DNA of 64,000 nucleotides from Polynucleobacter sp. CS-Odin-A6 (GTDB lineage: Bacteria; Pseudomonadota; Gammaproteobacteria; Burkholderiales; Burkholderiaceae): the NCBI RefSeq assembly GCF_018882095.1, contig NZ_JACVPD010000001.1:1-64000 (forward strand), read 5' to 3'. A program made the position numbers and the translations under genes. Below, piece after piece: positions 43,461-45,692 of the stretch. Under the pieces are notes generated by a model that was not told the origin of the DNA, made no database searches, and was given only the letters and a program-made list of their open reading frames with translations. The stretch's first letter is position 1; each line of letters opens with the position of its first letter.

Positions 43461-44321
43461 CTAATTGCCCGGTGGTAATTCTGCTCCTGCAGGATGCTTA
43501 TATCGGTTGTATGACCAGATAAATTGTTCCGGGGCAAGCAGGATTGCATCTTCAATTGCAGTATTTAATTCCTTGGCTGCACTATTTGCATCACTCGAAA
43601 ACGAATTCAATCGTTTAGCGTCGATGATCCAACCTTTACCAAGAGCCCGCCTTTTCGCTGTAAACATCACTGCAGGTGTATCGTGACGATTCGCAAGGCG
43701 AATGGGTAGAGTGGTGGTGTAAGCAGGTCGGCCAAAAAAATCTGCCCAAATGCCATCACCCCCACTAGGAACTTGATCAGGAAGAATGGCAATTGCCTCA
43801 CCTTTTGAAAGGGCTCTCGTCATTTGGCGTACGCCATTGAGATTGGTTGGCACAAAGTGCATATTTGGGTAGGCGCGCCCCGCTTCTACTAACTCATTCA
43901 GCCATGCTTGGCGAGAGGGGCGATACATGATCGTTGCAGGGAAGTGACCCGCAAGAAAGCGGGGAATGATTTCAAAGCCGCCTAAATGTGGGCAGAGGAT
44001 AATCATTCCCTTACCTTCGGACATCGCATCCTGCACTACTTTCCAGTTATGAACGATGGTTGTGGCTAAAGCCTTTTTAGAGTTACGCCAGATCCATAAG
44101 CTGTCTGAAAATAGCATTCCAGAGGCTGTAATAGCGGTCCAAAGTCTGGATTGAAGGCGGTAATGGTGAATCACTGCGCCATATTGGGATTTAAATAGTT
44201 GGCGATATTGTTTTGATCCAACATAAGCCAAACCCCCCAAAAAACCCCCAAGAACCTGAACTACTCCAAGGGGAAGGGAGGCAATGGTTTTGAGGCTTAG
44301 CTTAAGAAATAGTTTTCGCAC
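43461..44321 (-). CDS. LpxL/HtrB-family acyltransferase, divergent
   Basis: A 286-residue member with HX4E as HLGGFE, PDQVPSGGDGIWADFFGRPAYT as the second conserved block, and a C-terminal WSYNRYKHP. It is much less similar to the other two copies, suggesting a different acyl position or donor. The start is GTG at 44321. It is the first gene of the minus-strand run leading to dapF, and divergent from metK. Confidence 0.87.
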   Translation of the reverse strand: MRKLFLKLSLKTIASLPLGVVQVLGGFLGGLAYVGSKQYRQLFKSQYGAVIHHYRLQSRLWTAITASGMLFSDSLWIWRNSKKALATTIVHNWKVVQDAMSEGKGMIILCPHLGGFEIIPRFLAGHFPATIMYRPSRQAWLNELVEAGRAYPNMHFVPTNLNGVRQMTRALSKGEAIAILPDQVPSGGDGIWADFFGRPAYTTTLPIRLANRHDTPAVMFTAKRRALGKGWIIDAKRLNSFSSDANSAAKELNTAIEDAILLAPEQFIWSYNRYKHPAGAELPPGN

Positions 44322-44370: not shown

Positions 44371-44400
44371 TTGATAAATAAGGCGATTTTCGGATAGAAT
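44371..44400 (+). promoter_or_regulatory. Predicted sigma-70 promoter of metK
   Basis: TTGATA (44371-44376) and TAGAAT (44395-44400) are separated by 18 bp. The predicted transcription start (about 44406-44408) coincides with the first base of the riboswitch-like P1 stem, which strengthens both calls. Confidence 0.65.
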
Positions 44401-44406
44401 GGCTTT

Positions 44407-44464
44407 ATCGCTGAGTTAAGGCAACTTGCAGGGCGATTCATAAATTCTGCTAAAGCGTCGCCGT
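44407..44464 (+). promoter_or_regulatory. SAM-II-like (SAM-II/SAM-V) riboswitch candidate, metK leader
   Basis: P1 is atcgct (44407-44412) with ggcgat (44432-44437), closing a 19-base loop. The loop carries gttaa and cttgca, and the 3' strand carries cataaattctgctaaa (44439-44454). These match, in order and spacing, the SAM-II core blocks as I remember them (UUAA, UUGCA, AUAAAU, GCUAAA). The pseudoknot pairing next to GCUAAA is less clear than in canonical examples, so SAM-V or a diverged form is possible. It sits just downstream of the promoter and about 60 bases before the metK start. SAM-II is known mainly from alphaproteobacteria. Confidence 0.6.
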
Positions 44465-44525
44465 TGTAATTCCTGGCACGTCGAGTTGTCCTATAGATCG
44501 TGTTAATTTTTTAAAGGAATATGCA

Positions 44526-45692
44526 ATGGCAAATGATTACTTCTTTACCTCAGAATCCGTTTCTGAAGGCCATCCCGATAAAGTAGCAGACCAAATTTCT
44601 GATGCAATCTTGGACTCCATTCTGGCCCAAGATCCTACTGCACGGGTTGCTGCAGAAACGTTATGTAATACTGGCCTAGTAGTTTTGGCCGGTGAAATTA
44701 CTACTAACGCAAATGTGGATTTCATCCAGGTGGCCCGTAATACCTTGCGTGAGATTGGTTACGACAATACCGACTACGGCATTGACTACAAAGGCTGCGC
44801 GGTATTGGTGGCCTATGACAAACAGAGTCCCGACATCGCTCAGGGTGTTGATAAGGCGCATGACGATGGACTAGATCAAGGTGCCGGCGACCAAGGCCTG
44901 ATGTTTGGTTACGCTTGTGATGAAACGTCCGAGCTCATGCCCTTGCCAATCCATTTATCACACCGCTTAGTAGAGCGCCAATCGCAATTGCGCCGTGATG
45001 GTCGCTTAAACTGGTTACGTCCTGATGCAAAGTCCCAGGTGACATTGCGTTATGTTGATGGCAAGCCCGATTCGATTGATACGGTTGTACTTTCCACTCA
45101 GCATGACGAGGAAATTTCTCTTGAGAAATTACGTGAAGCAGTGATTGAAGAGATCATCAAACCCGTATTACCTAAGCACTTAATTAAGGGCGCGATCAAC
45201 TTCTTAGTCAACCCAACTGGTCGATTTGTTATCGGCGGCCCGCAAGGCGATTGTGGTCTGACTGGCCGTAAGATCATTGTAGATACCTATGGCGGTGCAG
45301 CCCCTCATGGCGGTGGCGCCTTTTCTGGTAAGGACCCTTCTAAAGTCGATCGTTCAGCCGCTTACGCAGGCCGATACGTTGCTAAGAATGTGGTTGCAGC
45401 CGGTTTAGCGAGCAAGTGTTTAATTCAGATCTCTTATGCTATTGGTGTAGCTAAGCCCACGTCAGTGATGGTGAGTACTTACGGCACAGGAAAGATCTCT
45501 GATGAAAAGATTGCCCAATTGGTATCAGAGCACTTTGACTTACGTCCAAAAGGAATTGTCAAGATGTTGAATCTCTTGCGTCCGATTTATCGCAAGACTG
45601 CTGCTTATGGTCATTTTGGTCGTGAAGAGCCAGAATTCACTTGGGAGCAGTGCGATAAGGCACCTGCATTGCGTGCCGCTGCTGGCTTGTAA
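44526..45692 (+). CDS. metK: S-adenosylmethionine synthetase
   Basis: A 388-residue enzyme making SAM from methionine and [25 protein letters not shown] is the N-terminal ATP/methionine motif, [14 protein letters not shown] the hexapeptide region and [19 protein letters not shown] the phosphate loop. An aaaggaat ribosome-binding site precedes the ATG. It is the first gene of a metK-ahcY-metF block, and its leader contains a SAM-II-like RNA. Confidence 0.97.

Follow-up and report, generated by a model that had tools for sequence, protein, structure and literature searches.

Polynucleobacter sp. CS-Odin-A6 very probably has, in the leader of metK, a riboswitch of the SAM-II kind that responds to SAM and acts on translation. 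It lies in the window, the stretch of 64,000 nucleotides that was analysed. The leader can hide the start signal of metK, so that abundant SAM probably lowers metK expression. That SAM is the ligand, which way the switch works and that the ON state is kinetic are what we infer. The earlier note had proposed a diverged SAM-II-like riboswitch here, and this is borne out, as far as sequence allows, by covariation in P1 and P2, a pocket that appears to be kept, methionine genes downstream and tandem arrangements with Rfam SAM-II elements. Several points stand against this explanation: the Rfam cutoff is missed, the third strand has a G, the fold is only weakly unusual, the competing hairpin is only partly conserved and the calculated energies favour the masked state even in the absence of ligand.

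The betaproteobacterial elements that we retained (105 matches at 85 loci) are of two forms. Those with CAGCUUGC, 29 in number, are called type B and the 76 without it type A. The window element belongs to type A, and type B is near-canonical SAM-II.

The metK locus and the architecture of the leader

There are 204 bases between metK and its divergent neighbour, whose 5' side ends at 44321 in the list of open reading frames. We take the gene to be metK from its protein sequence. The consensus-like promoter of the earlier note is present with 10 of 12 consensus matches; a 401-base scan contained two promoter-like sites against 0.7 expected from shuffles. A -10-like TAGAAT or TAAAAT stands directly before P1 in many leaders of the genus. 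Downstream of the promoter come P1, with GAGUUAA and GGCAACUUGCAG in its loop, then ten bases of linker and CUGCUAAAGCGUC. The features of the locus and the putative aptamer are as follows.

44371 to 44400, + strand: sigma-70-type promoter (TTGATA, 18 nt, TAGAAT)
44398 to 44473, + strand: sub-cutoff match to Rfam SAM_alpha, 12.9 bits
44404 to 44462, + strand: candidate SAM-II-kind aptamer (type A), extent of the match to model R1 (65.9 bits, E 2.7e-11)
44407 to 44412, + strand: P1, 5' strand, pairing with 44432-44437; two-sided changes in relatives
44413 to 44419, + strand: third strand GAGUUAA; of the SAM-II UUU, the last two pyrimidines are kept (44416-44417) and the first is G (44415)
44420 to 44431, + strand: P2, 5' strand, GGC-AA-C-UUGC-AG; UUGC in 76/76 type A sites
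44432 to 44437, + strand: P1, 3' strand (covariation)
44447 to 44459, + strand: P2, 3' strand, CU-GC-U-AAA-G-C-GUC (covariation and invariance)
44526 to 45692, + strand: metK, S-adenosylmethionine synthetase, 388 aa (open reading frame)

The four conserved blocks that the earlier note picked out are where it placed them between 44415 and 44454 (gttaa, 44415-44419; cttgca, 44425-44430; cataaat, 44439-44445; and gctaaa, 44449-44454), and P1 is intact as it said, with six pairs of which one is U-G. It had called the pseudoknot partner weak, but the partner is strong, with P2 pairs that covary in relatives. The 3' positions usable in P2 are 44447-44450, 44452-44453, 44455 and 44457-44459. As a single sequence the leader has a weakly unusual fold (z -1.83; 8 of 200 shuffles fold as well). 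In one leader (L030, genome G023) there is a direct duplication of AGTTAAGACA within the aptamer loop and the model match is lower, at 55.2 bits; this may be a damaged copy or may show, as a natural experiment, how much change the loop tolerates.

An SAH riboswitch (RF01057; 45771-45881; 48.4 bits, cutoff 37) precedes ahcY, the next gene, which suggests that metK and ahcY of the window each have their own leader sensor. The start of ahcY as listed, 45883, may be too early, and there is an in-frame alternative about 20 codons on.

Rfam scans

When the whole window was scanned at gathering level, the SAH riboswitch before ahcY was the sole match. The earlier note had suggested scanning the leader with the SAM-II and SAM-V covariance models, and the outcome was divided. 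SAM_alpha (RF00521) was the only family listed in scans of 136 and 86 bases of the leader, but with E values of 0.73 and 0.46 and a score far below the cutoff of 36, and a 501-base scan gave no SAM family at E≤10, only families at chance level. Neither SAM-V (RF01826) nor SAM-II long loops (RF01726) was matched at E≤10 in any of these three scans, and the SAM/SAH and SAM-Chlorobi families were not listed for the leader at the same threshold.

The relatives behave similarly. The 36-bit gathering cutoff of SAM_alpha was reached by 0/44 type A metK loci scanned at that level (three batches of 20, 20 and 4). In a narrow-set scan of 12 leaders, SAM_alpha was listed at the type A place in three, with 16.3-19.2 bits (L046, L050 and L058); in L130 it was listed further upstream, apart from the type A place, with 25.5 bits. 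The 501-base Rfam scan alone would have given a negative verdict. In all that sequence can show, the element appears to fit SAM-II, yet it fails the Rfam score. Type A is a concrete gap for Rfam to close.

Distribution among relatives

A search for metK (E≤0.001) found the gene in 58/61 genomes of the genus. The conserved block is present in 58/58 primary metK leaders (L001-L058) and in 0/2 divergent second copies (L059 and L060), and model matches extend across the order; the element is therefore more than chance. The two second metK-like genes, in two genomes of the genus, have 68% and 67% identity and no leader element. All 19 leaders from other genera of the family carry the block, three of them as GGUUUAA...UUAC...GUUAAA.

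A covariance model, R1, which contains P1 only, was built from 31 of 45 distinct leaders and used with a cutoff of E≤0.1. It has a single match in the window's own genome, the metK leader. R1 picks up type B too, so its genome counts are for both types: 59/61 in the genus, 112/120 in the family (22/25 genera) and 165/300 in the order (93/134 genera). In the wider samples they drop to only 20/229 for the class, of which three belong to the same order, and 19/249 for the phylum.

The earlier note held SAM-II to be unusual in betaproteobacteria. It is common: SAM_alpha is found in 136/300 genomes of the order at E≤0.001 (51/300 over the cutoff), and Meyer et al. (2009) name Alpha-, Beta- and Gammaproteobacteria as groups in which SAM-II is common (PMC2704228). 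Bordetella bronchiseptica is among the SAM-II examples of Corbino et al. (2005) (PMC1273637). Leyn et al. (2014) report SAM_alpha only from Rhizobiales and Rhodobacterales (PMC4239095).

Type-A-like elements also stand before genes for AAA/MoxR-type ATPases (L189 and L194), an unexpected target for a SAM sensor. In one gammaproteobacterial family (L204-L208) they precede an open reading frame of about 106 aa, opposite a greB-like gene. The small protein begins MTCPN... in three of the five and the one that was tested had no NCBIfam match. A GCCUC/GAGGC pairing with the Shine-Dalgarno sequence is visible at these loci.

Covariation of P1 and P2

The earlier note had proposed that the metK leaders of relatives be aligned. 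In two alignments, with 31 and 104 distinct rows, the pairs of P1 and P2 covary. Alignment A1 has 31 leaders chosen from 45 distinct ones. Alignment A2 has 108 rows (104 distinct) and was fitted to P1, not to P2; its covariation counts include three spurious rows (two antisense and one fragment) that were dropped from later counts. Two-sided changes occur in 6/9 P1 pairs and 2/6 P2b pairs of A1, where the GAC/GUC helix has none in the 31 rows, and in 9/9 P1 pairs and 5/10 P2 pairs of the 104 distinct rows of A2, including 2/3 of the GAC/GUC pairs. The covariation score is 0.184 in A1 against 0.103 when shuffled (0/500 as high) and 0.220 in A2 against 0.088 (0/500), and with the partners slid it is at most 0.064. 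Further pair types in A1 do not exceed the shuffles (296/500). The two helices of SAM-II, P1 and the pseudoknot P2, are thus both present and both covary.

In three leaders UUGC/GC-U-AA of P2 is swapped for UUAC/GU-U-AA, which on the predicted structure preserves the pair beside the adenine-binding bulge. A different P2, in which GUUGUC (44485-44490) pairs with GGCAAC and an inserted hairpin is added, was considered and rejected because it is present in only 4/36 clusters, whereas the GUC directly after GCUAAAGC pairs across the set. GUUGUC may instead serve as an anti-P2 strand within the genus.

Within the genus the leader is almost unchanged over much of its length, as would be expected if only DNA or a coding overlap were conserved and the RNA shape were incidental, although such invariance is by itself silent on RNA. 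The two-sided P1 and P2 changes across genera and the leader-specific anti-Shine-Dalgarno pairing described below already contradict that explanation, which we find scarcely credible.

The SAM pocket

In SAM-V, U47 pairs with the adenine of SAM and is supported by U8, and the pocket also has A50 and the triple U20:A48.U9 (PMC6061858). By position, U44451 would correspond to U47, A44452 to A48 and A44454 to A50. The SAM-II core (UUGC, GCUAAA and a U tract in the third strand) is found in the window with one exception, the first U of the tract, which is G here and in 49/76 type A sites. UUGC, GC and UAAA are kept in 76/76 type A sites, and the third-strand U residues equivalent to 44416-44417 in 75/76 and 74/76.

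The exception bears on the ligand. A SAM-II-kind aptamer whose preference the third-strand G has helped to shift, for example towards a different adenosyl compound or towards binding SAH as readily as SAM, would account for a G at the adenine-facing position in those 49 type A sites against U in 27/29 type B sites. The U8 that occupies the corresponding place in SAM-V supports the U that pairs with adenine (PMC6061858), and an SAH riboswitch of its own stands before ahcY, the next gene. Against this, the residues at the sulfonium and the amino-acid end (the U-A-U triple and the A50 equivalent) are unchanged, U is kept at the position in 25/76 type A sites and metK is a gene of SAM synthesis; we consider the shift unlikely and SAM the probable ligand. 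Few positions separate type B from type A and the pocket is common to both, so comparing the two allows a direct test of the role of the third-strand G.

Type A and type B elements and their tandem arrangement

Clear SAM_alpha matches among the type B elements are those before metZ-like genes (L124, L136 and L138) and those upstream in tandems (L105 and L148). An intrinsic terminator follows 27/29 type B elements (shuffles, 3/145) and 4/76 type A elements (shuffles, 2/380). metK or other methionine genes stand downstream of the elements, metZ and metX having been called by eye from their sequences without a family-library test. The loci taken up after the order-level R1 search were picked by hand, so fractions such as the following describe this sample: metK lies within 450 nt downstream of 48/76 type A and 0/29 type B sites. 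Type B is not excluded from metK, as two type-B-like elements outside the sample (L210 and L222) precede it.

There are 20 tandem loci with one element of each type and in 20/20 type B is upstream of type A. This points to a division of one kind of aptamer, in a single lineage, between a form that terminates transcription and one that masks the start site, used singly or in series.

Open reading frames of 95-114 aa that start MYDC or MFDC follow the aptamers at 19/33 loci scanned (L119, L120, L146, L148 and others), including 15/19 tandem loci scanned. The four that were tested had no Pfam match and no convincing NCBIfam match. A MatE transporter follows the MYDC/MFDC frame (tested with Pfam in L119 only).

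A conserved RNA that pairs with the ribosome-binding site would also fit a structured leader that has no small-molecule ligand and is instead bound by a protein, or autoregulated through MetK or a small RNA. However, the residues that do not vary are the SAM-holding ones of SAM-II and SAM-V, and SAM-II copies of Rfam grade stand in tandem with type A. Control of this kind is very unlikely in our view, and the SAM-responsive riboswitch remains the preferred explanation.

Expression platform

The features downstream of the aptamer suggest that a SAM-responsive leader would act on translation.

44455 to 44481: predicted ON hairpin, about -6.9 kcal/mol
44460 to 44473, + strand: anti-Shine-Dalgarno strand GCCGUUGUAAUUCC of the predicted OFF helix, pairing with 44516-44530 (RNAfold MFE)
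44475 to 44481, + strand: GGCACGU, alternative partner of 44455-44458 and 44460-44463 (energy and motif count)
44485 to 44490, + strand: GUUGUC, complementary to the P2 5' strand at 44420-44425 and perhaps a second anti-P2 strand, found mostly in the genus
44516 to 44530, + strand: region hidden in the predicted OFF helix (RNAfold), comprising the Shine-Dalgarno sequence of metK, its AUG and its second codon

For the comparison of leaders with their own genes, 36 clusters were formed from 131 metK leaders (112 distinct). Between the segment after P2 and the leader's own ribosome-binding site the duplex energy is -18.76 kcal/mol, against -13.64 (SD 0.50) when partners are permuted (0/5000 as good). 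The same duplex without the constant GCC and all coding bases gives -13.14 against -9.85 kcal/mol (0/5000). A control with the segment reversed was not significant in the 36 clusters (689/5000). These data show that the post-P2 segment of type A co-varies with the gene's own ribosome-binding site.

Support for the ON hairpin is moderate. The competing strand, GGC-N0/1-ACGY, is able to pair with GCGU-C-GCC and is present in 15/36 clusters against a shuffled mean of 0.75 (maximum 4 in 500). Within the linker without the Shine-Dalgarno sequence, GCGUC pairs better than in shuffles in 27/36 clusters (p=0.003). GYTGTC is found in the linker of 54/112 distinct leaders, which represent only 4/36 clusters. 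Plain base shuffles were used for the tests of RBS pairing, terminators, the ON hairpin and linker motifs.

The calculated energies favour masking even when no ligand is present (MFE -35.3 kcal/mol against -23.7 with the ribosome-binding site forced open; -29.8 masked against -14.6 open when the P2 strands are reserved). This suggests that the switch, if real, is kinetic and that the ON state must be kinetic too. Transcription would start a few bases before P1, and SAM would, as it does in SAM-II and SAM-V, lie in the major groove of P2, the pseudoknot helix formed by 44420-44431 and 44447-44459. By stabilizing P2, SAM would keep GCGUC (44455-44459) out of the competing hairpin at 44455-44481; 44460-44473 would then be free for the Shine-Dalgarno sequence and AUG (44516-44530) and MetK synthesis would fall. 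Without SAM, the competing hairpin, formed first during transcription, would hold GCGUC and the anti-Shine-Dalgarno strand, and metK would be translated.

The window fold also contains GGCACGUC/GAUCGUGUU followed by AAUUUUUU at 44475-44511, as would be needed if a SAM-II-type aptamer acted here by terminating transcription and not on translation. However, the T run is broken in relatives (e.g. L014 and L016, AATTATTAAAGG), a scan of the window gave no terminator-like site and terminators are as rare after type A as reported above. A terminator model for the window is thus weak and we judge termination highly improbable.

Comparison with known systems

The leader resembles SAM-II (RF00521) in its P1 stem-loop, its H-type pseudoknot P2 and its UUGC and GCUAAA core. 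In SAM-II, transcription starts just before P1 (PMC1273637), as it probably does here, and both RNAs precede genes for methionine and SAM. It differs in that type A has GAGUUAA for GAUUUGA in the third strand, GACAAC for CAGC before UUGC, a GUC strand of P2a and, in many genera, inserts between P1 and GCUAAA. Additionally, type A is mostly without a terminator and appears to mask the ribosome-binding site, whereas a terminator is the commonest SAM-II platform.

With SAM-V (RF01826) the leader shares the pocket, the pseudoknot and a probable translational mode of action. SAM-V stands behind a terminating SAM-II element in tandem (PMC9481103), as type A stands behind type B here. The final 3' pairing that most SAM-II RNAs have is missing from SAM-V (PMC2704228), whereas the GAC/GUC pairs of P2a covary in type A. 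The short P2a of SAM-V includes the Shine-Dalgarno sequence (PMC6061858), whereas the Shine-Dalgarno sequence of metK lies 56 bases beyond P2 (44516 against 44459). The P3 hairpin of SAM-V is absent in the window, where the linker has 10 nt, and other genera have inserts of up to about 60 nt.

It is unlikely that type A forms a betaproteobacterial class of its own within the SAM-II superfamily, distinguished by its pocket change, its platform, its fixed tandem place downstream of a terminating SAM-II copy and a ligand range unlike that of classical SAM-II. If this were true, P2 and the hairpin that guards the anti-Shine-Dalgarno strand would share one strand and the pocket change, a G facing the adenine-binding U, would set the ligand range. 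A diverged SAM-II-kind riboswitch is the reading that we prefer.

In the open-access literature, with most subscription journals outside the scope of the search, we found no paper describing a SAM-II element before metK in betaproteobacteria. A survey of tandem riboswitches reports 44 pairs of SAM-II elements in tandem, and in some of them a terminator comes first and RBS control second (PMC9481103). Pairs described here may be among them, in which case type A copies may already be present in the SAM-II collection of the survey authors. metK is absent from the main text of a Breaker-laboratory search of a Polynucleobacter genome (PMC8632094). The SAM/SAH and SAM-Chlorobi motifs likewise precede metK, in other taxa (PMC2864571).

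Finally, Leyn et al. (2014) describe a metXZ element of betaproteobacteria, a leader with a possible pseudoknot before metX and metZ that is followed by terminators (PMC4239095), as type B is. Going by that description, the two are probably the same. In that study the metXZ element is not reported before metK, unlike type A, and among its roughly 200 proteobacterial genomes betaproteobacterial metK is left without a known regulator after a search that failed (PMC4239095). Type A would supply that missing metK regulator for much of the order, with R1 matching 165/300 genomes for both types together and metK following 48/76 of the type A sites sampled.
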